Shown piece by piece: positions 25 through 62,534 of a stretch of DNA of 64,000 nt (the stretch's first letter is position 1; every line of letters starts with the position of its first letter). This DNA is from Salvelinus alpinus (taxonomy: Eukaryota > Chordata > Actinopteri > Salmoniformes > Salmonidae). Under the pieces are notes generated by a model. That model was not told the DNA's origin, ran no database searches, and saw only the letters and a list, made by a program, of their open reading frames with translations. The stretch covers positions 22,164,038 through 22,228,037 of the forward strand of contig NC_092098.1 in assembly GCF_045679555.1 (NCBI RefSeq), in the 5' to 3' direction. Both the position numbers and the translations under genes were made by a program.

Positions 25-147
25 ATGGCTCAGTTGGTAAAACATGGCACTTGCACCGCCACGGTTGTGGGTTCGATTCCTGGGGCCACCCATACGTAAA
101 CTGTATGCAAGCATGACTGTACGTGGCTTTGGATAAAAGAGTCTGAT
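25..147 (+). repeat. tRNA-derived salmonid SINE
   Basis: The head reads like a tRNA: an A-box-like stretch (tggctcagttgg) and a perfect B-box-like ggttcgattcc, followed by the tail module ending in a tggataaaagagtctgataaatggc-type end that typifies salmonid tRNA-derived SINEs (HpaI/SmaI group; exact subfamily not decided). A second, more diverged copy lies at 44207-44344. It is not a functional tRNA gene because the acceptor stem does not pair. Confidence 0.85.
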
Positions 148-667
148 AAATGGCAAATATATAGTGACGTACATTGACAAAAAAGATAACAAACACATAC
201 CTGCGCAAAGGACAGGCTATGATAGAGTATCAGAGACAGACAAGGTCTTATCTGATGACATGGAGTCGGAGCTTGCTAAGAATCTTAAGGACCGGTTTCA
301 TGGGCTTAGTAGCCTCAAATGCAGAGAACTTGCTTACGCATTGGTACATCGAAACAGCATTCCTCTCTCAGACAACTGGTCAAGAAATTGAAGGGTAAGT
401 GCTATTTAACAGAGATAGTTATATCTGAATGTAGGCATACATTTGAATGTAGGCAGGAAATAGTGTTTAACATGATTTTTTAATGACTACCTCATCTCTG
501 TACCCCACACATACAATTATCAGTAAGGTCAGTCGAGCAGTGAATTTCAAACACAGATTCAACCACAAAGACCAGGGATGTTTTCCAATGCTTTGCAAAG
601 AAGGGAACCTATTGGTAAATGAGTAAAAATAAGAAAAGCAGACATGGAATATCCCTTTGAGCATGGG
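148..667. other. Intergenic stretch, nothing recognised
   Basis: Short open frames occur on both strands but show no known domain, no splice pattern and no codon bias that I can see. No repeat family was recognised here. Confidence 0.5.
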
Positions 668-2889: not shown

Positions 2890-3064
2890 CATTCTTAGCT
2901 AATCTGTAAATTCTCCCGGTGTACATAAGCATAGATTGCATTTGATTACTGCTACAGTGCTATTTGTGTTGTTAATCAGATTTGTCCCGCCGTTCTTGAT
3001 TTATTGTCTTTTTGTCTTTTTTTCACTTACATTTTAATTGTTTGACATTTTACTGCATTGCTAG
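2890..3064 (+). repeat. LINE 3'-end-like segment
   Basis: The T-rich tail ending in tttactgcattgctag continues, after the inserted LTR element, into taacataagtatttcacttc at 3609, a string typical of salmonid LINE 3' ends. This suggests the miniature LTR element landed in a LINE tail. Confidence 0.4.
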
Positions 3065-3604
3065 TGTAACCGATGTGAAATGGCTATCTAGTTAGCGGTG
3101 GTGCGAGCTAATAGCCTTTCAATCGGTGACGTCACTTGCTCTGAGACCTTGAAGTAGTGGTTCCCCTTGCTCTGCAAGGGCCGTGGCTTTTGTGGAGCGA
3201 TGGATAACGATACTTCGTGGGTGACTGTTGTTGATGTGTGCAGAGGGTCCCTGGTTTGTGCCCGGTCCGGGGCGAGGGGACGGACTAAAGTTAAACTGTT
3301 ACATTGGTGCCGTGACCCGGATCACTGGTTGCTGCGGAAAAGGAGGAGGTCGAAAGGCGGGTGAGTGTAACCGATGTGAAATGGCTATCTAGTTAGCGGT
3401 GGTGCGCGCTAATAGCCTTTCAATCGGTGACGTCACTTGGTCTGAGACCTTGAAGTAGTGGTTCCCCTTGCTCTGCAAGGGCCGCGGCTTTTGTGGAGCG
3501 ATGGGTAACGATGCTTCGGGGGTGACTGTTGTTGATGTGTGCAGAGGGTCCCTGGTTCGCGCCCGGTTCGGGGCGAGGGGACGGTCTAAAGTTAAACTGT
3601 TACA
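3065..3604 (+). mobile_element. Miniature LTR retroelement (TRIM-like), looks structurally whole, non-coding
   Basis: Two direct repeats of 239 bp each (3065-3303 and 3366-3604), both starting TGTAAC and ending GTTACA, flank only 62 bp. They are about 96 percent identical. Directly after the first repeat lies a primer-binding-site-like ttggtgccgtgacccggatc (3304-3323), and the second repeat is preceded by a purine-rich tract (about 3340-3362). The element is flanked by CTAG on both sides (3061-3064, 3605-3608), fitting a target duplication. It has no room for gag or pol. This layout matches terminal-repeat retrotransposons in miniature, which move with enzymes from a larger relative. Confidence 0.8.
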
Positions 3605-4960
3605 CTAGTAACATAAGTATTTCACTTCACGCGCTAGAACAAAAACACACGAGAAATAGAAATAAGAAGAACACTAGAAAGTAAGCTATACACAGGGGCA
3701 GGATCAGTGCCAAAACCATATTTATGATGTGCATGGTTACTGGAGTGGTAGTTTTAGATATGTATAGGGGCAAGTTGACTAGGCATCAGGATATATGATA
3801 AACAGAGTAGCTGCAGCGTATATGATGATTGTATGTGAGTGTCTGTGCGAGTCAGTATAAATGTGTGTGCGTGTTATGTGTTTATGAGCAAATTAAGTAT
3901 GTGTGTGTTGGCGTGTCAGTGTGAGTGTGTGTGTGTGAGTGTGTAGAATATTCATAGAGTGTGTGTTAATGTGCATAGAGAGTGCAAAAATAAAATAGAA
4001 AGGTCAATGCAGATAGTCCGTGTAGCCATTTTGTTAGCTATTTAGCAGTCTTATGGCTTGGGGATAGAAGCTGTTCGGGAGCCTGTTAGTGTCAGACTTG
4101 ATGCTCCGGTACCACTTGCCATGCGGAAGCAGGTAGAACACGCTATGGCTTGGCTGGCTAGAGTCTTTAACAATTTGAACAATCTTCCTTTCACACCGCC
4201 TGATGGCAGGGAGCTTGGCTTCAGTGATGTACTGGGCTGTCGGCACCACCCTCTGTAGTGCCATGCGATCGAGAGTGGTACATTTGCCATACCAAGCAGT
4301 GATGCAGCCAGTCAAGATGCTCTCTAAAGTGCAGCTGTAGAAGTTTTTGAGGATTTGAGGGCCCATGCCAAATCTTTTCAACCTCCTGAGGGGAAGAGGC
4401 GGTGTCGTGCATTCTTCACGACTGTTTGCGTATATGTGGACCATTTTAAGTCCTTAGTGATTTGGACACCGAGGAACTTGTAGCTCTCAACCAGCTCCAC
4501 TGCAGCCCTGTCAATGTGGATGGGGGGTGTGCTCGCTCCCCCGTTTCCTGTAGTCCACGATCAGCTCCTTGGTCTTACTGACGTTGCAGGAGAGGTTGTT
4601 GTCCCGGCACCATACTGCCAGGTCACTGACCTCCTCCCTGTAGGCTGTCTCATCTTTGCCGGTGATCAAGCCTACCACCATTGTGTCGTCAGCAAATTTG
4701 ATGATGGTGTTGGAGTCGGGCGTGGCTACGCAGTCATGTGTGAACAGGGAGTACAGGTGGGAACTAAGCACACAACCCTGTGGGGCCCCCGTGTTGAGGG
4801 TCAGCATGGCGGTGGTAATGTTGCCTACCATCACCACCTGGGCGCGGCCCGTCAGAAAGTCCAGGATCCAGTTGCAGAGGGAGGTTCAGTCCCAGGGTCC
4901 CAAGCTTGGATGACAAGCTTGGAGGGGTGTGTAGCACTGAGCTCTAGGTAATGAACAGCA
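3605..4960 (-). mobile_element. L2/CR1-like LINE fragment, 3' half with reverse transcriptase
   Basis: On the minus strand the region about 4837-4511 encodes reverse-transcriptase motifs GAPQGCVLS and FADDTMVVG, and 4444-4034 continues with the downstream LINE block ([27 protein letters not shown]). The TG-rich stretch near 3830-3970 is the 3' untranslated part. It is truncated at 5' near 4960 and the frame is shifted between the two blocks, so it is inactive. The same family recurs at 7215-11110, 27388-27772 and 30690-31322. Confidence 0.8.
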
Positions 4961-4970
4961 TTCTCACATA

Positions 4971-5658
4971 CAGTGCATTCGGAAAGTATTCAGACCCCTT
5001 GACTTTTTCCACATTTTGTTACATTACAGCCTTATTCTAAAATGGATTAAATGAAATAAATTCCTAAACAATCAACACACAATACCCCATAATGACAAAG
5101 CGAAAACAGGTTTTTAGAAATGTTTGCAAATGTATTAAAAATACAAAACAGACCCTTTGCTATGAGACTCGAAATTGAGCTCAGGTGCATCCTGGCACAC
5201 ACCTGTCTATATAAGGTCCCACAGTTGACAGTGAATGTCAGAGCAAAAACCAAGCCATAAGGTTGAAGGAATTGTCTGTATAAATCCGAGACAGGATTGT
5301 GTCAAGGCACAGATCTGGGGAAGGGTACCAAAAACAATTCTGCAGCATTGAAGATCCTGTAGAATACAACCGCCATCATTCTTACATGGAAGAAGTTTGG
5401 AACCACCAAGACTCTTTTTAGAGCTGGCCGCCCAGCCAACTGAGCAATAGGGGCAGAAGGGCCTTGGTTAGGGAGGTGACCATGAACCTGATGGTCACTC
5501 TGACAGAGCTCCAGAGTTCTGATGTGGAGATGGGAGAACTTGCCAGAAGGACAACCATCTCTGCAGCACTCCACCAATCAGACTTTTATGGTAGAGTGGC
5601 CAGACGGAAGCCACTCCTCATTAAAAGGCACATGACAGCCCGCTTAGAGTTAAAAGGC
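4971..5658 (+). mobile_element. Tc1-like element, 5' half
   Basis: It starts after TA with cagtgcattcggaaagtatt, the terminus also seen at 32722. The region about 5400-5650 encodes the DNA-binding part of the transposase (LVREVTMNLMVTLTELQ, RRTTISAALHQSDFYGRVAR) with several frame changes. At 5658 it jumps into the 3' end of a different Tc1-like family. Confidence 0.8.
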
Positions 5659-6953: not shown

Positions 6954-9900
6954 TCATAATGCATCATAGTCATCGTCGTCTTCATGCTTCCTCTTCAGCG
7001 ATTCGCTGGCCGAGTTCTGTGACACCATGTTGGTGGTGATGAGGATCTTTTTGGATCCGATCAGGGAGGGGTTGATGAGGACATTTTGAACCATTGGGGT
7101 GGATGGTGTGGCTGTCGGAAAACAAAAGACAAAAATATCAGGATTTATTATGAACATTTAAAATGCACATTTTATTCAGTGAATAAACTACTGAATTGAA
7201 GCGTCTGAGAGACTTTAATTCAATTAAATCGTATTGGTCACATGCGCCAAATACAACAGGTGTAGACTTTTGCAGTTGAAAAAAATACAAATATTTGCCA
7301 AATAAAAATGAAATATTAAAAATAAAATGGGTATATACAAGGAGTACCAGTACAGAATCAATGTGCAGGGGTACGAGGTAGTTGAGGTAATACAGTATCA
7401 TGGGGGTAGGGGTAAAAGTGACTAGGTAATCAGAATATAGAATAAACAGAGTAGCAGCAGCATATGTGAAAGTGTGTCTGTGTGTGGTGTCAATAAGCAT
7501 GTGTGTCTGTGTGTTGTATGTACTGTGTGTGTTGGAGTGTCAGTGTATTGTGTGTGGATAGAGTCTAGTGAGTGTGCCAGTCAAGGGAGTCAGTGCAAAA
7601 CAATTAAGATAAATAAATGGGAGGTCAATGTAAATCATTTTTAGTGCCTTCTGACACCGCCTGGTATAGAGGTCCTGAATGGTAGGGAGTTCGGCCCCAG
7701 TGATGTTCTGGGCCGTATGCACTACCCTCTGTAGTGCCTTGTGGTCGGATGCTGAACAGTTGCCATACCAAGTGGTGATGCAGCAAGTGAAGATACTCCC
7801 ATGCCAAATCTTTTCAGCCTCCTAAGGGTGAGAGGCATTGTCGTGCCCGCTTCATGACTGTGTTGGTGTGCTTGGACTATGATAGGTCCTTAGTGATGTA
7901 AACACAGGAACTTTAAGCCCTTGACCTTCTCCACTACAGCCCCGACGTAAATGCAGGTGTGTTCGGCCCTCCGTTTCCTGTAGTCCACAATAAGCTCCTT
8001 TGTCTTGCCCACGATGAGGGAGAGGTTGGTGTCCTGGCACCACACTGCCAGGTCTCTGACCTTCTTGGGCACAGTCACTATGGTGGTCTGCTTAAAACAT
8101 ATAGGTATTGCAGACTCAGACAGGGAAAGGTTGAAAATGTCAGTGAAACTTGCAAGTTGGTCAGTGCATGCTCGCAGTACACGCCCTGGTAATCCATCTG
8201 GCCCTGTGGCCTTGTGAATGTTGACCTGTGTTACTCACATCGGCAGCGGAGAGCGTGATCACACAGTCTTCCGGTACAGCTGCTGCTATCATGCAAGTTT
8301 AAGTGTTATTTGCCTCGAAGCGAGCATAGAAGTAGTTTAGCTCGTCTGGTAGGCTTGTGTCGCTGGGCAGCTCTCGGCTGTGCTTCCCTTTGTAGTCTGT
8401 AATGGTTTGCAAGCCCCGTCACATCCAACGAGCGTCAGAGCCGGTGCAGTACGACTCGATCTTAGTCCTGTATTGACGCTTTGCCTGTTTGATGGTTCGT
8501 CGGAAGGCATAGCGGGATTTCTTATAAGCTTCCGGGTTAGAGTCCCGCTCCTTGAAAGTGGCAGCTCCAGCCTTTAGCTCACTGCGGATGCTGCCTGTAA
8601 TCCATGGCTTCTAGTTGGGGTATGTACGTACAGTCACTGTGGGGGTGAAGTCATCAATGCACTTATTGATGAAGCCAATGACAGATGCGGTGTACTCCTC
8701 AATGCCATTGGAAGAATCCCAGAACATATTACAGCCTGTGCTAGCAAAACAGTCCTGTAGCTTAGCATCTGCTTCATCTGACCACTTTTATTGATCTGGT
8801 GGTTCCTGCTTTAATATTTGCTTGTAAGCAGGAATCAGGAGGATGGAATTATGGTCAGGTTTGCCAAATGGAGGGCGAGGGAGAGCTTTGTATGCATCTC
8901 TGTGTGTGGAGTACAGTGTTGAAGTCGGAAGTTTACATACACCTTAGCCAAATACATTTAAACTCAGTTTCAGAATTCCTGACATTTAATCCTAGTAAAA
9001 ATTCCCTGTCTTAGGTCAGTTAGGATCACAACTTTATTTTAAGAATGTGAAATGTCAGAATAATAGTTGAGAGTGATTTATTTCAGCTTTTATTTCTTTC
9101 ATCACATTCCCAGTGGGTCAGAAGTTTACATACACTCAATTAGTATTTGGTAGCATTGCCTTCAAATTGTTTAACTTGGGTCAAACGTTTCGGGTAGCCT
9201 TCCACAAGCTCCCCACAATAAGTTGGGTGAATTTTGGCCTATTCCTCCTGACAGAGCTGGTGTAACCGAGTCAGGTTTTTCAGTTCTGCCCACACATTTT
9301 CTATACGATTGAGGTCAGGGCTTTGTGATGGCTACTCCAATACCTTGACTTTGTTGTCCTTAAGCCATTTTGACAACTTTGGAAGTATGCTTGTGGTCAT
9401 TGTCCATTTGGAAGACCCATTTGCGACCAAGCTTTAACTTCCTGAATGATGTCTTGAGATGTTGCTTCAATACATCCACATAATTTCCCCACCTCATGAT
9501 GCAATCTATTTTGTCAAGTGCACCAGTCTCTCCTGCAGCAAAGCACCCCCACAACATGATGCTGCCACCCCCGTGCTTCACGGTTGGGATGGTCTTCTTC
9601 GGCTTGCAAGCCTCCCCCTTTTTCCTCCAAACATAATGATGGTCATTATGGCCAAACAGCTCTATTTTTGTTTCATCAGACCAGAGGACATTTCTCAAAA
9701 AAGTACAATCTTTGTCCCCATGTGCAGTTGCAAACCGTAGTCTGTTTTTTAAAAATAAAATGGTGGGTTTGGAGCAGTGGCTTCTTCCTTGCTGAGCGGC
9801 CTTTCAGGTTATGTCGATATAGGACTTGTTTTACTGTGGATATAGGTACTTTTGTACCGGTTTCCTCCAGCATCTTCACAAGGTCCTTTGCTGTTGCTCT

Positions 9901-12900
9901 GGGATTGACTTGTACTTTTCGCACTAAAGTACGTGCATCTCTAGGAGACAGAACGCGTCTCCTTCTTGAGCGGTATGACAGCTGCATGGTCCCATGGTGT
10001 TTATACTTGCGTACTATTGTTTTTACAGATGAACGTGGTACCTTCAGGCATTTGGAAATTGCTCCCAAGGATGAACCAGACTTGTGAAAACTAACCGACT
10101 TGCCAAAACTATAGTTTGTTTTAACAAGAAATTTGTGGAGTGGTTGAAAAACGAGTTTTAATGACTCCAACCTAAGTGTATGTAAACTTCCAACTTCAAC
10201 TGTAGGTGGTCCAGAGTTCTTTTCCCTCTGGTTGCACATTTATCATGCTGATAGAAATCTGGTAAAACTTATTTAAGTTTCCCTGCATTAAAGACCCCGG
10301 CTACTAGGAGCGCCGCCTCTGGGTGGGCGTTTTCTTGTTTGATTATGGCGGAATAAAGCTCATTCAATGCTATCTTAGTGCCAACCTCTGACTGAAGTGG
10401 TATGTAAAGAGCTACGAAGAATACAGATGAGAACTCTCTTGGTAGGTAGTGTGGTCTACAGCTGATCATGATATACTCAACCTCAGGCAAGCAATAGCTC
10501 GAGACTTCCTTCGATATAGTGCACCAGCTGTTATTTACAAAAATACAAAGTCCGTCGTTGTTTTACCAGACGCCGCTGTTCTATCCTGCCGGTACATTAT
10601 ATAACCAGCCAGCTGTATGTTGATATTGACGTCATTCAGCCACGACTCCGTGAAGCATAAGATGTTACAGTTTTTAATGTCCCGTTGGTAGTTTAATCTT
10701 CCCCGTAACTTGTCGATTTTATTGTCCAAATATTGCACGTTTGCTAGCAGAATTGAGGGAAGTGGGGGTTTATTCGATCGCCTTCTCGGAAGGCAGCCCG
10801 CTCTCCGGCCTCTCTTTCTCCGCCACCTCTTCACGCAGATCACGGGGGTCTGGGCCTGCTCCCGAGGGAGCTGTATATCCTCCGCCTCGGGCTCGTCAGA
10901 GTTATGAAACAAGAAAAAGGATTCTGCTAGTTCGTGGTGAGTAATCGCAGTCCTGATGTCTAGAAGTTATTTTCGGTCATAAGAGACGGTAGCAGCAACA
11001 TTATGTACAAAAAGAGTAAAAAAATACGTTACAAATGCAGATAAACGAACAAAAAAACAATCAGTTGGGAGCACGTCTACCTTCTGTTCCGGCGCCATCT
11101 TACCCTGCACCGGGGCGCTGGTAGAAATTAGGTCAAACAGATTTCCGTTTTTTTTATGGCCCTATACAGCTCGCTGATTAAGGTCTTAGTGCCAGCACCA
11201 GTTTGTGACAGTAAATAAACAGCCACAAAAAATTCAGATAGAATACCTCATAATAATCTGTAGTCCATAATAATCTGTAGTCCATACTAACTCAGGTGAG
11301 CAGAACCTTGAAACTTCTTTAACCTTTTCTCAATATAGGGGGTGCTGTTTCTACATTAGCATTTATCGTCTCCAAATTAAACTGCCTCATACTCAATTCT
11401 TGCTCGTACAATATGCATATTATAGTTATTATTGGATAGAAAACACTCTCTAGTTTCTATAGCCGTTTGAATTATGTCTCTGAGTGAAACAGAACTCATT
11501 CTACAGCACTTTTCCTGATATGGAGTGAGATTTCAGACATTTTGGCCTCTGGTCCCAGGTCAGTTTTAAAGTCCCTGTAAATCCTATGAGGATACAAACA
11601 CTGCCCATGCCTTCCTCTAGATGTCAGTAAGAGGTGACAATTTGAATGGAGTCGATTGCGCAATCAGGGCCAGTATAAAACAGAAAAGACCGGATGTACC
11701 GTTCTTTTCCTGCTGCGCCTCACGCAAGATGGACGTCGGACTCTCTCTCTTTCCAAGCGTTGGTTTAGCCACTTATATATCGCCGGTCATGTTTTTACTC
11801 GTTATAGGTGTTAAAAACATCATAAGGTAGTTAATTTTAACCGTTTTATAGCAATTTATATCCGTTTAGTGCGATTTTGAGGCATTGCTTTGTGATGCAC
11901 ATTGAAGCACCGGGCACGTTTCGGGGTCCCGGTCGAACGTTAGTGGGCATTTCGACGGACAAGAGGACAGCTTTCGACCAAAAGAAGATTAGACCCAAGA
12001 AAGGATACATTGCCCAAGATACTGATGGAAGAACAGCTCACAGTAAGAACTATTTATGATGATAAATCGTTGTTCTGTCGAAAAATGTTATACGCATATT
12101 CCGCCATTTTTTTTGGTATAGCTTCGCTTGGCGAACCCTGTATTGCACATTAAGGATATTTTTAGAAATGTAATTCAGCGATTGCATTAAGAACTAATTT
12201 GTCTTTCGATTGCTGTCCACCCTATATTTTTTAGTCAAGTTTACGATTAGTTATTCATTACGCCAGATCACTGTCCAAAATGGAGCCCGACATTTTCAGT
12301 CTAGTTTTGCTAGTATTGTCATGTTATAACCACGTTTTTTTGTGGCTAAATATGCACATTTTTGAACACTCTCTATATGTATGTTGTAATATGATGTTAC
12401 AGGGGTGTCATCGGAAGAATTCTGAGAAGGTTAGTGAAAAAATTAATACATTTTGGCGATGATTACGTTATCTCTCTCTTTGGCTTGTATCAATGCTCGG
12501 GTAACGTTTGCACATGTGGTATGCTAATATAACGATTTATTGTGTTTTCGCTGTAAAACACTTAGAACATCTGAAATATTGTCTGAATTCACAAGATCTG
12601 TGTCTTTCCAATGCTATGCTTTGTCTATTTTTAAGAAATGTTTTATGATGAGTAAATTGGTAATACACGTTGCTCTCTGTATTTATTCTAGTCGAGTTGT
12701 GATGGTGGGTGCAATTGTAAACTATGATTTCTACCTGAAATATGCACATTTTTCTAACAAAAACTATCCTATACAATAAATATGTTATCAGACTGTCATC
12801 TGATGAGGTTTTTTCTTGGTTAGTGGCTATCAATATCTTTATTTGGCCGAATTGGTGATAGCTACTGGTGGAGAGAAAAAATGGTGGACAAAGAAAATGG

Positions 12901-24860: not shown

Positions 24861-25865
24861 CAGTACCAGTCAAAACACCTACTCATTCAAGGGTTTTTCT
24901 TTATTTTAACTATTTTCTACATTGTAGAATAATAGTGATGACCTCAAACTATGAAATAACACATATGTAACCAAAAAAGTGTTAAATTAAAATATATTTG
25001 AGATTCTTCAAAGTAGCCACCCTTTGCCTTGAGTCCATCTGTGGTAAATTCAATTGATTGGACATGATTTGGAAAGGCACACACCTGTCTATGTAAGATC
25101 CCATAGTTGACAGTGCATGTCAGAGCAAAAACTAAGCCATGAGGTCGAAGGAATTCTGTCTGTAGAGCTCCGAAACAGGATTGTGTTGAGAGACAGATTT
25201 GGGGAAGGGTGCCAAAAAACATCTGCTGCATTGAAAGTCCCCAAGAACACAGTGGCCTCCATCATTCTTAAATGGAAGAAGTTTGGAACCACCAAGACTC
25301 TTCCTAGAGCTGGCCGCCCGGCCAAACTGAGCAATCGGGGGAGAAGGGCCTTGGTTAGGGAGGTGACCAAGAACCCGATGGTCACTCTGACAGAGTTCCT
25401 CTGTGGAGATGGGAGAACCTTCCAGAAGGTCAACCATCTTTGCAGCACTCCACCAATCGGGTCTTTATGGTAGAGTGGCCAGACGGAAGCAACACCTCAG
25501 TAAAAGGCACATCACAGCCCGCTTGGAATTTGCCAAAAGGAACCTAAAGGACTCTCAGACCATGACAAACAAGATTCTCTGGTCTGATGAAACCAAGATT
25601 GAACTCTTTGGCCTGAATGCCAAGCATCACGTCTGGAGGAAAACTGGCACCATCCCTACGGTGAAGTATGGTGGTGGCAGCATCATGCTGTGGGGATGTT
25701 TTTCAGCGGCAGGGACTGGGAGACTAGTCCGGACCGAGAGAAAGATGAACAGAGCAAAGTACAGAGAGATCCCCAGACTTGAACCTGGTCGAACATCTCT
25801 GGAGAGACCTGAAAATAGCTGTGCAGCGATGCTCCCCATCCAACCTGACAAAGCTTGCAGAAAAT
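24861..25865 (+). mobile_element. Chimeric Tc1-like element (two families fused)
   Basis: Bases 24861-25028 are the terminus of the cagtaccagtcaaa family. At 25029 it changes into the interior of the family seen at 4971 and 32722. The plus strand then encodes a transposase in pieces: 25117-25473 (ELRNRIVLRDRFGEGCQKTS, RAGRPAKLSNRGRRALVREV) and 25403-25867 ([35 protein letters not shown]). The second catalytic Asp segment is deleted around 25769, so it is inactive. Confidence 0.8.
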
Positions 25866-25947
25866 AATAATAATCGACTCTTGCTCAACTCCCAAAACAC
25901 GCTGAAACGGATGTGCACACAGCACCTCATTGCAGAGTTCTACTTGG

Positions 25948-28725: not shown

Positions 28726-30300
28726 CACTGAACAAAAATATAAACGCAGCATACAACAACTTCAAAGATTTGACAGAGTTACAGTTAATATAAGGAAATC
28801 AGTCAATCAAAAATAAATTCATTAGGCCCTAATCTATGGATTTTACATGACTGGGAATTCAGATATGCATCTGTTGGTTCTCACAGAATGTATGGGAGTG
28901 GATCGGTTAAATGAAAAAATCTGAAAACCAGTCAGTATCTGACCACCATTTGCCTCATGCAACATGACACATCTCCTTCGCATAGATTTGATCAGGCTGT
29001 TGATTGTGGGCTGTGGAATTGTGTCCCACCCCTCTTCAATGGCTTTGCGAAGTTGCTAGATATCATTGGGAACTGGAACATTCTGTTGTACACATCGATC
29101 CAGAGCATCCCAAACATGCTCAATGGGTGAAATGTTCAGTGAGTATGCAGGCCATGGAAGAACTGGGACATTTTCAGCTGCCAGGAATTGTGTACAAATC
29201 CTTGCAACATGAGGCCATGCATTACCAAGCTGAAACATTTTTATTTTTATTTAACCTTTATTTAACTAGGCAAGTCAGTTAAAAACGAATTCTTATTTAC
29301 AATGACGGGGATGGCGGCGGATTAATGACATGAAAATGGGCCTCAGGATCTCGTCATGGTATCTCTGTGCATTCAAATTGCCATTGATAAAATGCAATTC
29401 TGTTTGTTGTCCATAGCTTATGCCTGCCCATACCATAATCCCACCTCCACCATGGGGACCTCTGTCCACAATGTTGACATCAGCAAATCGCTTGCCCACA
29501 CGACGCCATACACGCTGTCTGCCATCTGCCTGGTACAGTTGAAACCAGGATTCATCCGTGAAGACCACACTTCTCCAGTGTGCCAGTAGCCATCGAATGT
29601 GAGCATTTGTCCACTGATGTCGGTTACGACGCCGAACTGCAGTCAGGTCAAGACCCTGGTGAGGACGACGAGCACGCAGATGAGCTGCCCTGAGACGGTT
29701 TCTGACAGATTGTGCAGACATTTTTTGATTGTGCAAATCCACAGTTTAATCAGCTGTCCGGGTGGCTGGTCTCCAACGATCCCGCAGGTGAAGAAGCCGG
29801 ATGTGGAGGTCCTGGGCTGGTGTGGTTACACGTGGTCTACAGTTGTGAGGCCTGTTGGACGTACTGCCAAATTCTCTAAAATGACGTTGGAGGCGACTTA
29901 ATGTAGAGAAATTAACATTCAATTCTCTGGCAACAGCTCTGGTGGACATTCCTGCATTCAGCATGACAACTACACGCTCCCTCAAAACTTGAGACATCTG
30001 TGGCATTGTGTTGTAACAAAACTGCACATTTTAGAGTGGTATTTTATTGTCCCCGGCACAAGGAGCATCTGTGTAATGATTGTGCTGTTTTATCAGCTTC
30101 ATGATGTGCTACACCGGTCAAGTGGATGGATTATCTTGGCAAAGGTGAAGTGCTCACTAACAGGGATGTAAACAAATTTGTGCTCAAAATTTGAGAGAAA
30201 TAAGCTGTTTGTGTGTACGGAACATTTCTGGGATCTTTTATTTCAGCTCATGAAACGTGACCAACACTTTGCAGGTTGCGTTTTATATTTTTGTTCAGTG
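28726..30300 (-). mobile_element. Tc1-like transposon, full length but inactive
   Basis: Inverted ends cactgaacaaaaatataaac and gttttatatttttgttcagtg-type, next to TA at the left. The minus strand encodes a transposase in pieces: 30027-29746 ([20 protein letters not shown], helix-turn-helix), 29742-29293 (SVVFTDESWFQLYQADGRQR with the first Asp; GPHGGGGIMVWAGI) and 29238-29056 (SPIEHVWDALDRC with the Glu). The second catalytic Asp, normally in a QQDNARPH-type motif, is replaced by QLGNAWPH, and a SINE tail is inserted next to it. Confidence 0.88.
29238..29317 (-). repeat. SINE tail fragment inside the Tc1
   Basis: The block tttatttaactaggcaagtc followed by aatgacggggatggcgg is the reversed 3' part of the salmonid SINE seen in full orientation at 33777-33930. 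Only about 80 bp are present. Confidence 0.8.
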
Positions 30301-32690: not shown

Positions 32691-33776
32691 GTGTAGGGAG
32701 TTGTGTCTGTTCTATAACTTCCAGTGCATTCGGAAAGTATTCAGACCCTTTGACATTTTCCAAATTGTTGTTACATTACACCCTTATTCTAAAATGTATT
32801 AAATTGTTTTTTCCCCTCATCAATCTACACACAATACCCCATAACGACAAAGCAAAAACAGTTTAGATATTTTCGCAAATGTATTACAAGTAAAAAAACG
32901 AAATACTATATTTACATAAGTATTCAGACCCTTTATTCAGTACTTTGTTGAAGCAGCTTTGGCAGCGATTTCAGCCTTAAGTCTTCTTGGGTATGACGCT
33001 ACAAGCTTGGCACACCTGTATTTGGGGAGTTTCTCCCATTCTTCTCTGCAGATCCTCTTAAGCTCTGTCAGGTTAAATGGGGAGTGTCACTGCACAGCTA
33101 TTTTCAGGTCTCTCAAGAGATGTTCGATCGGGTTTAAGTCCGGGCTCTGACTGGGCCACTCAAGGACATTCAGAGGCTTGTCCCGAAGCCACTCCTGCGT
33201 TGTCTTAGGGTCGTTGTCCTGCTGGAAGGTGAACCGTCGACCCAGTCTGAGGCCCTGAGCACTCTGGAGAAGGTTTTCATCAAGGATCTCTCTGTACTTT
33301 GCTCTGTTCATCTTTCCCTTGATCCTGACTAGTCTCCCAGTCTCTGCCGCTGAAAAACATCCCCACAGCATGATGCTGTCATCACCATGCTTCACCGTAT
33401 TGATGGTGCCAGGTTTCCTCCAGAGATGACGCTTGGCATTCAGGCCAAAGAGTTCAATCTTGGTTTCATCAGACCAGAGAATCTTGTTTCTCATGGTCTG
33501 AGAATCTTTAGGTGCCTTTTAGCAAACTCCAAGTGGGCTGTCATGTACCTTTTACTGAGAAGTGTCTTCCGTCTGGCCACTCTACCATAAAGGCCTGATT
33601 GGTAGAGTGCTGCAGAGATGGTTGTCCTTCTGGAAAGTTCTCCCATCTCCACAGATAAACTCTGGAGCTCTGTCAGAGTGACCATCATGTTCTTGGTCAC
33701 CTCCCTGACCAAGGCCTTTCTCCCCTGATTGCTCAGTTTGGCCGGGCGGCCAGCTCTAGGAACTTCTTCCATTTAA

Positions 33777-34669: not shown

Positions 34670-45316
<10,647 letters not shown>

Positions 45317-47735: not shown

Positions 47736-48650
47736 CTGGTCGCAGCATCGCTCTACGGAGATGCTTATTGAATCGACGGGTGAAACGCCGCCATCTGGTG
47801 GGGGAAAAGCATTCAATCACTGTACCTCTATCCACATCCAGTACTACACACCACACACATCTCTCTTAGCCCCAACCACATTTACATTTGTACATTTTAG
47901 TCATTTAGCAGACACTCTTATTCAGAGCGACTTACAGTAGCAATTAGGGTTAAGTGCCTTGCTCAAGCGCACAACGACAGATTTCAGCACTTAGTCGGCT
48001 CAGGGATTTAACCAGCGACCTTTCAGTTACACCTAGATATATTACTTTACCTCTAGGGGAAGAGGCTAGGAATTTAAACGTTCTAAGTATTCAAACTAAG
48101 TATAGAACCCTTGCTCTGTCACCTTTCCTGTGCATCATTGTGCCTGTTCACCCTCTCTGCCACCGCCTCCTTCTCATCCATCCATCTCTCCAGAAGCCCC
48201 TCTTTCTCTCTCCAGACCGCTGCAAGCCCCTCCCTCAACTCCCGCTGCTCCAACCGCAGGGCTGCCAACTCCTTTGATTGGCTCTCCAATTCAAACTCAC
48301 GCTCTGATAGGCTGGCCTGCAGAATGTTGGCCCCCCTGGCTTGAGTGACAGCTTCCTTCTGATAGCGGGAGACTCTAATAGAAGATGGTGACATGAGTCT
48401 ATGTAAGTTTATATCAGACAACCTCACAACTAAGATCCCTCTCAGTTTCAGTATCTTTGTAGACAATGTCATGGATCCATTATTAAACCATATAGACTAC
48501 TGTACCTTAACATTAATCTATGAACAGATTACAATGGTTGATCACTTACTGTGATTAGCAGTATTGAAGCTCTGCGTCTTTCTGGTACATGGCGGTGGTC
48601 AGGTAAGAAACTGTCCGAGAGAGCTTGGGAGGAAGAAGAGGAAGATTGGA
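47736..48650 (-). pseudogene. atg16l2: ATG16L2-like gene fragment (coiled-coil exons)
   Basis: Three minus-strand exons with consensus splice sites and matching phases: 48650-48550, 48374-48123 and 47794-47736. Translated they give SYLTTAMYQKDAELQYC, then SRYQKEAVTQARGANILQAS with a long charged coiled coil, and LLERWMDEKEAVAERVNRHN running into RWRRFTRRFNKHLRRAM. This matches the ATG16L coiled-coil region, including the TRWMAEKAQEANRLN block of ATG16L1; atg16l2 is my preference because of its divergence. ATG16L proteins recruit the ATG12-ATG5 conjugate to autophagosomal membranes. An in-frame TAA (about 48554-48556) ends the first listed exon, and neither the N-terminal nor the WD40 exons are visible, so it is probably a decaying remnant. 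Confidence 0.6.
47884..48030 (-). repeat. tRNA-derived SINE fragment
   Basis: Reverse orientation: catttagcagacactcttat and agagcgacttacagtagcaa are the inverse of the SINE tail seen at 25-147, followed by ttaagtgccttgctcaagcg and a degenerate reversed B box. It lies in the intron between the last two atg16l2-like exons. Confidence 0.85.
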
Positions 48651-55073: not shown

Positions 55074-55399
55074 GTTACATATAATTTGCGGCATGTATCT
55101 TGAGCAAAGTCATTGTAGCCTATCATTTCACTTCCAATATCTGTGAGGCATGAGCCTACCAAATGTTGCACCGTGTCCATTACAATGTAGAAAAACGTGT
55201 CTCTAGTCCAAATCGTTTAATATTTAGGCTATCCATATTATCAAAGCTTCATCTTCTTTGTATTTCTATGGTAGATTCGCGGGCCGCAATTTATGGAAGA
55301 TGCCAAAACTTTTGAGATAACAATAGATGTCAAAGCTACTCCCCTATCCATCTTTGGTGAAGTTTTCCCTACATGCTTATGACAAATCCAGATCTAGGA

Positions 55400-56600
55400 T
55401 CTGTGCCACTGCCCGTCTGCCCAGCGCCGCCTGAGCTGCCCGTCTGCCCAGCGCCGCCTGAGCTGCCCGTCTGCCCAGCGCCGCCTGAGCTGCCCGTCTG
55501 CCCAGCGCCGTCTGAGCTGCCTGTCTGTCCAGCGCCGTCTGAGCCGCACGTCTGCCCTGAGCCGTCAGAGCCGCCCGTCTGTACTGAGCCGCTAGAGCCG
55601 TCCGTCAGTCAGGAGCCACTAGAGCCGCCCGCCAGTCAGGAGCCGCCAGAGCCGCCCGCCAGTCAGGAGCCGCCAGAACCGCCCGCCAGTCAGGAGCCGC
55701 CAGAGCCGCCCGCCAGTCAGGAGCCGCCAGAGCCGCCCGTCAGTCCGGAGCTGCCTTTCAGCCCGGAGCTGCCTTTCAGTCCTGAGCTGCCCCTCAGTCC
55801 TGAGTTGCCCCTCAGTCCGGAGCTGCCCCTCAGTCCGGAGCTGCCCCTCAGTCCTGAGCTGCCCCTCAGTCCGGAGCTGCCCCTCAGTCCTGACCTGCCC
55901 CTCAGTCCGGAGCTGCCCCTCAGTCCTGAGCTGCCCCTCAGTCCTGAGCTGCCCTTCAGTCCTGAGCTGCCCTCAGTCCTGAGCTGCCCCTCAGTCCTGA
56001 GTTGCCCCTCAGTCCGGAGCTGCCCCTCAGTCCTGAGCTGCCCCTCAGTCCGGAGCTGCCCCTCAGTCCGGAGGAGTTTCCTCAGTCCAGAGGCGCCCCT
56101 CAGTCCAGAGGTGCTCCTCAGTCCAGTGGGGCCCTTTATTAGGGTTCCCAGGCCAAGGTCGGCGGCGAGGGTCGCCGCTAAAAGGACGCTAAGAAAGCGG
56201 ACAAAGACAATGGTGGAGTAGGGTCCACGTCCAGCGCCAGAGCTGCCACCGCAGACAGATGCCCACCCAGACCCTCCCCTATAGGTTCAGGGGGGGGGGG
56301 GGGGGGGGGGGGGGGGGTACTGTCACGTTCTGACCTTTATTTCCTTTGTTGTGTCTTTATTTAGTATGGTCAGGGCGTGAGTTGGGGTGGGCAGTCTAGT
56401 TTTGTATTTCTATGTTTTTCCTATTTCTGTGTTTGGCCTGATATGGTTCTCAATCAGAGGCAGGTTTTTTGTGTTGTCTCTGATTGGGAACCGTATTTAA
56501 GTAGCCTGTTTTGTGTTGGGTTTTGTGGGTGGTTGTCTTCAGTCTTCCTGTGTCTGCACCAGACAGAACTGTTTCGGTTTTTCACATTTGTTGTTTTGTT
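55400..56600 (+). mobile_element. 3' end of a Gypsy-type LTR retrotransposon (fossil, broken)
   Basis: Parts: a GC-rich stretch coding a proline-rich tandem repeat (units like PVCPAPPEL, EPPEPPASQ, then LSPELP), about 55400-56150, ending in a basic tail RVAAKRTLRKRTKTMVE before a stop near 56220; a polypurine-like G tract expanded to 28 G (56290-56317); and an LTR starting TGTCACG at 56321, of the same family as the solo LTR at 1223. The LTR abuts a Tc1 fragment near 56600. Most of gag and pol is absent. It is broken. Confidence 0.75.
56290..56317. repeat. G28 homopolymer at the LTR boundary
   Basis: An uninterrupted run of G directly before TACTGTCACG, that is, at the polypurine-tract position of the LTR element. 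The length may be unreliable in the assembly. Confidence 0.85.
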
Positions 56601-60964: not shown

Positions 60965-62534
60965 CAGTGCCTTGCAAAAGTATTCACCCCGCATTTTTCC
61001 TATTTTGTTGCATTACAACCTGTAATTTATTTGGATTTCATGTAATGGACAGACAGAATAGTCCAAATTGGTGAAGTGAAATTCAAAAAAATTACTCGTT
61101 TCAAAAAATAAAGTGTTGCGTGCATATGTATTCACCCCCGTTGCTATGAAGCCCCTAAATAAGATATGGTGCAACCAATTACCTTTAGAAGTCACATAAT
61201 TAGTTAAATAAAATCCACCTGTGTGCAATCTAAGTGTCACATAATCTCAGTACATATACACCTGTTCTGAAAGGCCCAGAGTCTGCAACAACCCTAAGCA
61301 AGTGTCACCATGAAGACCAAGGAGCTCTCCAAACAGGTCAGGGACAAAGTTGTAGGAAAATAACAGATCAGGGTTGGGTTATAAAAAAATATCAGAAACT
61401 TTGAACATGCCACGGGGCACCATTAAATCCATTATTGAAAAATGGAAAGAATATGGCACCACAACAAACCTGCCAAGAGAGGGCCGCCCACCAAAACTCA
61501 CAGACCAGGCAAGGAGGGCATTAATCAGAGGCAACAAAGAGACCAAAGATAACCCTGAAGGAGCTGCAAAGCTCCACAGAAGAGATTGGAGTATCTGTCC
61601 ATAGGACCACTTTAAGTCGTACACTCCACAGAGCTGAGCTTTACAGAAGAGTGGCCAGAAGAAAGCCATTGTTAAAGAAAAAAATAAGCAAACATGTTTG
61701 GTGTTCGACAAAATGCATGTGGGAGACTCCCCAAACATGCGGAAGATGGTACTCTGGTCAGATGAGACTAAAATGTAGCTTTTTGGCCATCAAGGAAAAC
61801 GCTATGTCTGGCGCAAACCCGACACCTTATCACCCCGAGAACATCATCCCCACAGTGAAACATGGTGGTGGCAGCAGCATGCTGTGGGGAGGTTTTCCCC
61901 ATCGGGCAGGGACTGGGAAACTGGTCAGAATTGAAGGAATGATGGATGGCGCTAAATACAGGGAAATTCTTGAGGGAAACCCGTTTCAGTCTTCAAGAGA
62001 TTTGAGACTGGGACGGAGGTTCATCTTCCAGCAGGACAATGACTAAGCATACTGCTAAAGCAACACTTGAGTGGTTTAAGGGGAAACATGTAAATGTCTT
62101 GGAATGGCCTAGTCAAAGCCCTGACCTCAATCCAATTGAGAATCTGTGGTATGACTTAGATTGCTGTACACCAGTGGAACCCATCCAACTTGAAGGAGCT
62201 GGAGCAGTTTTGCATTGAAGAATGGCCAAAAATCCCAGTAGCTAGATGTGCCAAGCTTATAGACATACCCCAAGAGACTTGCAGCTGTAATTGCTGCAAA
62301 AGGTGGCTCTACAAAGTATTGACTTTGGGAGTGCTGAATAGTTATGCACGCTCAAGTTCTTTTTCTTTTTTTTTTTCATTTCTTTTTTTCACAATAAATA
62401 TTTTGCATCTTCAAAGTGGTAGGCATGCTGTATCAATCAAATAATACAACCCCCCCCAAAAAATGTAATTCCAAGTTGTAAGGCAACAAAATAGGAAAAA
62501 TGCCAAGAGGGGTGAATACTTTCACAAGCCACTG
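60965..62534 (+). mobile_element. Full-length Tc1-like transposon, inactive
   Basis: Ends cagtgccttgcaaaagtatt and gaatactttcacaagccactg, between TA dinucleotides (60963-60964, 62535-62536); 1570 bp. The plus strand codes the DNA-binding domain at 61374-61604 ([38 protein letters not shown]), VLWSDETK with the first Asp near 61750 followed by a stop, [28 protein letters not shown] with the second Asp near 62035, and the [11 protein letters not shown]-type block with Glu at about 62130. Several stops and frame changes remain. It lies inside the rnasek intron, opposite in strand. Confidence 0.92.

Follow-up and report, generated by a model that had tools for sequence, protein, structure and literature searches.

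A TRIM-like, non-coding LTR retroelement with well-preserved ends in salmonid DNA

Terminal-repeat retrotransposons in miniature (TRIMs) are described as elements that stay below 1000 bp, bear terminal repeats of 100-250 bp and have a primer site complementary to a tRNA at one end of the interior and a purine tract at the other (PMC6934838, in the portion available). Two described systems come closest to the element considered here. Cassandra is a plant TRIM with a 5S rRNA promoter, whereas Helenus is defined by a tRNA-derived stretch in its LTR (Kojima 2024, PMC10886601, of which the accessible parts are drawn on throughout). According to the same source, animal Helenus TRIMs produce 4-bp duplications, the primer of vertebrate members is tRNA-His, -Leu or -Lys, and only Gypsy elements have a primer-site region in common with animal Helenus families. 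In that paper tRNA-bearing TRIMs are recorded for 13 species of fish, among them the coelacanth (there is no salmonid in its Table 1), a single zebrafish family is counted at 5575 LTRs and 2618 interiors, and the fish LTR-11_DR lineage of Ostariophysi is given an age of over 200 million years. Helenus elements are also mentioned in a meeting report (PMC12859917, in the portion available); among the papers retrieved on Helenus, PMC10886601 alone describes the elements, judging by titles and by that portion of the meeting report. TRIMs are thus already on record from fish, with copies running into the thousands in zebrafish, and the view that they are rarely described in fish, which accompanied the original prediction of the present element, is out of date.

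The element lies in a 64-kb stretch of Salvelinus alpinus DNA (hereafter the window, i.e. the whole of the sequence that was analysed) and totals 540 bp, made up of a 239-bp LTR, a 62-bp interior and a second 239-bp LTR (Table 1). A mechanical repeat search returned direct repeats at 3063-3308 and 3364-3609 (246 nt, 95%), which include a few edge bases; the LTR limits given in the table are this repeat trimmed to its TG...CA ends. Compared with each other, the LTRs differ by 10 mismatches (6 transitions, 4 transversions; 95.8% identity, K2P 0.043), and both start with TGTAAC and end with GTTACA, so that their termini are perfectly inverted over 6 bp. The original prediction had posited two 239-bp direct repeats around a 62-bp interior, in agreement at about 96 percent and with both ends and the target duplication preserved, and it holds in all these respects, down to the CTAG at both flanks. 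A 239-bp repeat that stays in register at 96% is well past chance; four matching bases at fixed ends would be expected by chance in about 1 in 256 cases.

Table 1. Features of the TRIM-like element, in window coordinates.
Feature	Position	Strand	Basis or remark
Target-site duplication, left copy, CTAG	3061..3064	.	identical to 3605-3608
5' LTR, 239 bp, TGTAAC...GTTACA	3065..3303	+	repeat search, LTR-LTR comparison
TTTT, only T run of at least 4 in 5' LTR	3188..3191	+	LTR position 124
B-box-like site, 5' LTR	3253..3263	+	8/10 to GGTTCRANYCC, LTR position 189
Interior, 62 bp, non-coding	3304..3365	+	ORF list
Primer-binding site (predicted)	3305..3322	+	17/18 to complement of tRNA-His 3' end, CCA included
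Purine tract, imperfect, ahead of 3' LTR	3336..3365	+	26/30 purines, counted on sequence
3' LTR, 239 bp	3366..3604	+	repeat search, LTR-LTR comparison
TTTT, only T run of at least 4 in 3' LTR	3489..3492	+	motif scan
B-box-like site, 3' LTR	3554..3564	+	9/10 to GGTTCRANYCC; 8/10 to GGTTCGANTCC
Target-site duplication, right copy, CTAG	3605..3608	.	matches left copy

The interior carries both of the signals that had been claimed for it. The predicted primer site begins one base past the 5' LTR and is the sole place in the 64-kb window, on either strand, that scores above 13/18 against the tRNA-His complement, the runner-up reaching exactly that value. The match to tRNA-His stands at 17/18, with the reference being the primer printed for human tRNA-His in the available portion of PMC12217144. 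Given the conservation of tRNAs, the 3' end of fish tRNA-His would be expected to be the same as that of its human counterpart. The purine tract is present though imperfect. C or T occupies 4 of the final 30 interior bases, the longest unbroken purine run (3336-3349, 14 nt) stops 16 bp before the 3' LTR, and the purines adjoining that LTR are interrupted by C and T. None of the window's 40 open reading frames, listed at a cut-off of 110 aa or more, overlaps the element.

How does this architecture compare with that of TRIMs in general? At 540 bp in total, with 239-bp terminal repeats, a tRNA-complementary primer site at the start of the interior, a purine-rich tract (26 of 30 bases) at its other end, broken next to the LTR, and no ORF of at least 110 aa, the element matches the published definition in size, repeats, primer site and purine tract (PMC6934838, in the portion available), as the original prediction had it. 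TRIMs form multi-copy families, however, whereas the element here is known from one copy in 64 kb. Cassandra shares the architecture and the size class (PMC10886601), but its 5S rRNA promoter finds no parallel at this locus, where no Rfam model matches at E up to 10. One might also imagine that no retroelement was involved at all, and that a 301-bp unit was simply duplicated, in tandem or segmentally, to give the two head-to-tail copies, which are indeed spaced 301 bp apart. Such a duplication would leave unexplained the TG...CA inverted ends of both LTRs, the tRNA-His primer site one base past the first repeat, the purine-rich end before the second and the 4-bp duplication at the flanks, and we give this account next to no credence.

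We consider it very probable that the element is instead a non-autonomous TRIM, its RNA copied by the reverse transcriptase of a helper, primed by tRNA-His and integrated with a 4-bp duplication. An LTR retrotransposon needs in cis the ends recognised by integrase, a primer site, a purine tract and LTRs for strand transfer. The LTR pair, the TG/CA ends, the primer site, the purine-rich end, the 4-bp duplication and the non-coding interior are all observed here; what we see is an LTR retrotransposon cut down to its cis needs and coding for no protein, so that protein must come from a helper, which would have mobilised the element in trans. In this scheme an autonomous LTR element, likeliest of the Gypsy superfamily, would supply the reverse transcriptase that copies the element RNA, with tRNA-His annealed at the predicted primer site priming first-strand synthesis; the second strand would begin at the purine tract ahead of 3366 or close to it, and the helper's integrase would insert the linear DNA, duplicating the 4 bp CTAG. 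A Gypsy-type helper appears most likely because the Helenus TRIMs of Kojima 2024 combine 4-bp duplications and tRNA-His priming with a primer-site region shared with Gypsy. No helper element was found here. A reverse-transcriptase remnant, which may be of the LTR or the non-LTR class, lies about 0.9 kb from the TRIM (4511-4885, minus strand; Pfam RVT_1, E 5e-11).

If the element belongs to a multi-copy family, as we would presume of a TRIM, relatives might be sought nearby. Searching the element against the 64-kb window (blastn, word 7, E up to 10) recovered the self match, the LTR-LTR match at E 8e-111 and another five rows at E 4.3 apiece, one of which falls in the 3' LTR of the element itself, on the opposite strand. 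The 64-kb window thus contains neither another copy nor a solo LTR. Nor did it yield an empty site when the two flanks were joined and sought as one sequence, the best match (46/55) being the element's own right flank and the next reaching 30/55. Short exact pieces of the element gave 0 matches in prokaryotic genome contigs and viral contigs, and blastn against phages and plasmids gave none to E 0.01. Since all of these sequences come from prokaryotes and from the viruses and plasmids that they carry, the absence of matches is uninformative on fish.

A single copy in the window is also what we would expect if the element were a private product of internal deletion, in which a longer LTR element lost its interior, through recombination at the locus or during one reverse transcription, and was never amplified. 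The interior is just what a long interior collapsed to both its ends would leave. Against this speaks, indirectly, the existence of fish TRIM families of like plan with thousands of copies (Kojima 2024, PMC10886601), families that are known to us by description. We regard a private deletion as improbable, and take the locus to be, most likely, an ordinary, well-preserved non-autonomous retroelement of an already published kind.

Having placed the element among TRIMs, we asked whether it might be assigned more narrowly. Under a Helenus-type reading, Pol III would be the polymerase that uses the element's promoter, starting in the 5' LTR and stopping in the 3' LTR, possibly at TTTT. Note that this reading narrows the TRIM explanation rather than competing with it, so that the confidence placed in the one and in the other is not to be added up to one; on its own merits we rate it somewhat below even odds. 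Resemblance to the fish Helenus families of the LTR-11_DR group, as described in the accessible parts of PMC10886601, extends to two short LTRs, a tiny non-coding interior with a primer site and a purine tract, a 4-bp duplication (here CTAG/CTAG), tRNA-His as one of the vertebrate primers and a fish host. The duplication, the tRNA-His primer site, the size and the type of host all agree with vertebrate Helenus (PMC10886601). The difference is that a tRNA-derived stretch in the LTR is a feature of theirs, the comparison being one by description and not by sequence.

Some motifs in the LTRs point in the same direction. A B-box-like site at LTR position 189 reaches 9/10 to GGTTCRANYCC in the 3' LTR, a score that 1.96% of 5000 composition-matched random sequences attain, and AATAAA, ATTAAA and TATAAA are absent from both LTRs, as is TATATA. 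In addition the LTR may be a common repeat in salmonids and other teleosts, which we offer as a lead and no more.

Several observations argue against this reading. First, the looser consensus behind the P of about 0.02 is one of two that were tried. Scored against the stricter GGTTCGANTCC, the site reaches 8/10 in the 3' LTR, equalled by 9.6% of 1000 shuffles, and 7/10 in the 5' LTR, equalled by 56%; the A of both consensuses is replaced by C in the 3' LTR and by T in the 5' LTR. The A box fares worse, being equalled by 1000 of 1000 shuffles, and the joint A and B score is equalled by 46% (3' LTR) and 85% (5' LTR) of them. Second, ARAGORN predicts no tRNA anywhere in the window, although it also missed the tRNA-like head of a SINE-like element at 26-83, and an Rfam search of 543 bases spanning the element, with E allowed up to 10, returned nothing. 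As a control, two perfect B-box sites were put to Rfam, of which that SINE head returned 13.7 bits (E 6) and the other nothing, making this a weak test. Third, the TTTT of the 5' LTR would fall between the Pol III start and the B box; if Pol III is used, that TTTT (3188-3191) might, speculatively, serve as a stop. With the tRNA-derived LTR stretch that defines Helenus being putative here, the element is to be filed as a TRIM and not as Helenus.

We found no published record of a salmonid TRIM in the literature searched, which leaves subscription journals mostly outside its scope, and six pieces of the element of 14-16 letters are printed in none of 5.39 million papers. The words 'salmo' and 'oncorhynchus' are absent from the main text of PMC10886601 as available, and 'TRIM' from the accessible part of a review of fish mobile elements (PMC7599744). 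An older paper on a salmonid 'retroviral LTR-like repeat' reportedly exists and was not found in the literature searched. Somewhat more doubtful than the Helenus-type reading as such is the fuller proposition that a salmonid, or another euteleost outside Ostariophysi, here harbours a TRIM of Helenus type that is driven by Pol III, belongs to the LTR-11_DR lineage and has an LTR strongly structured as RNA. If it were true, the lineage would be older than the reported >200 million years or would have moved by horizontal transfer. A Helenus-type element in a salmonid would add to the known hosts of a TRIM lineage already published from fish. It would also offer a clean copy, with its ends, primer site and target duplication, of use in dating and in the search for the helper. 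In annotation, LTRs of this kind risk being mistaken for repeats of unknown type or for tandem duplications.

The 4.3% divergence between the LTRs suggests an insertion age of about 2 to 11 million years (2.2 to 10.8 as calculated) if substitutions accumulate at 1e-8 to 2e-9 per site per year, rates that are assumed and not measured. CpG content tells a compatible story: the 3' LTR has 17 CpGs against 16.8 expected and the 5' LTR has 13, whereas the window as a whole has 0.43 of expectation, and LTR CpG near expectation in a depleted window is in keeping with a rather young insertion. Among the 10 LTR differences, three (at LTR positions 120, 193 and 195) are a T against the C of a CpG in the 3' LTR.

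Predicted folding of the LTR RNA (3366-3604) is better than that of dinucleotide shuffles (z -5.1, 0/200 as good). For RNA of the whole element (3065-3604) z is -7.7, with 0/100 shuffles as good, partly through pairing of one LTR with the other.

Elsewhere in the window, a beta-arrestin exon lies at 38334-38714 on the plus strand (best PDB match Beta-arrestin-2, E 5e-39, frame residues 8-82), and remains of Tc1/mariner-type transposases occur at 9676-10239 (-), 25391-25867 (+), 29293-29745 (-), 33087-33518 (-) and 61525-62046 (+), the first of which carries a Pfam Sleeping Beauty HTH domain. A vertebrate-type beta-arrestin exon together with Tc1/Sleeping Beauty-type transposase remains fits fish DNA. 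The SINE-like element mentioned above spans 26-159 (+) and consists of a weak tRNA-like head (26-83, 13.7 bits, below the Rfam gathering score), in which bases 70-80 form a perfect B box, and a UnaL2-type LINE tail at 106-159, which at 45.6 bits falls below the gathering score of 55. Two UnaL2 LINE 3'-end elements, at 44293-44348 (+) and 47895-47948 (-), score above the Rfam gathering threshold. Finally, a long open frame in the ORF list (55361-56221, plus strand) encodes proline-rich repeats of the ELPLSP and EPPASQ types.
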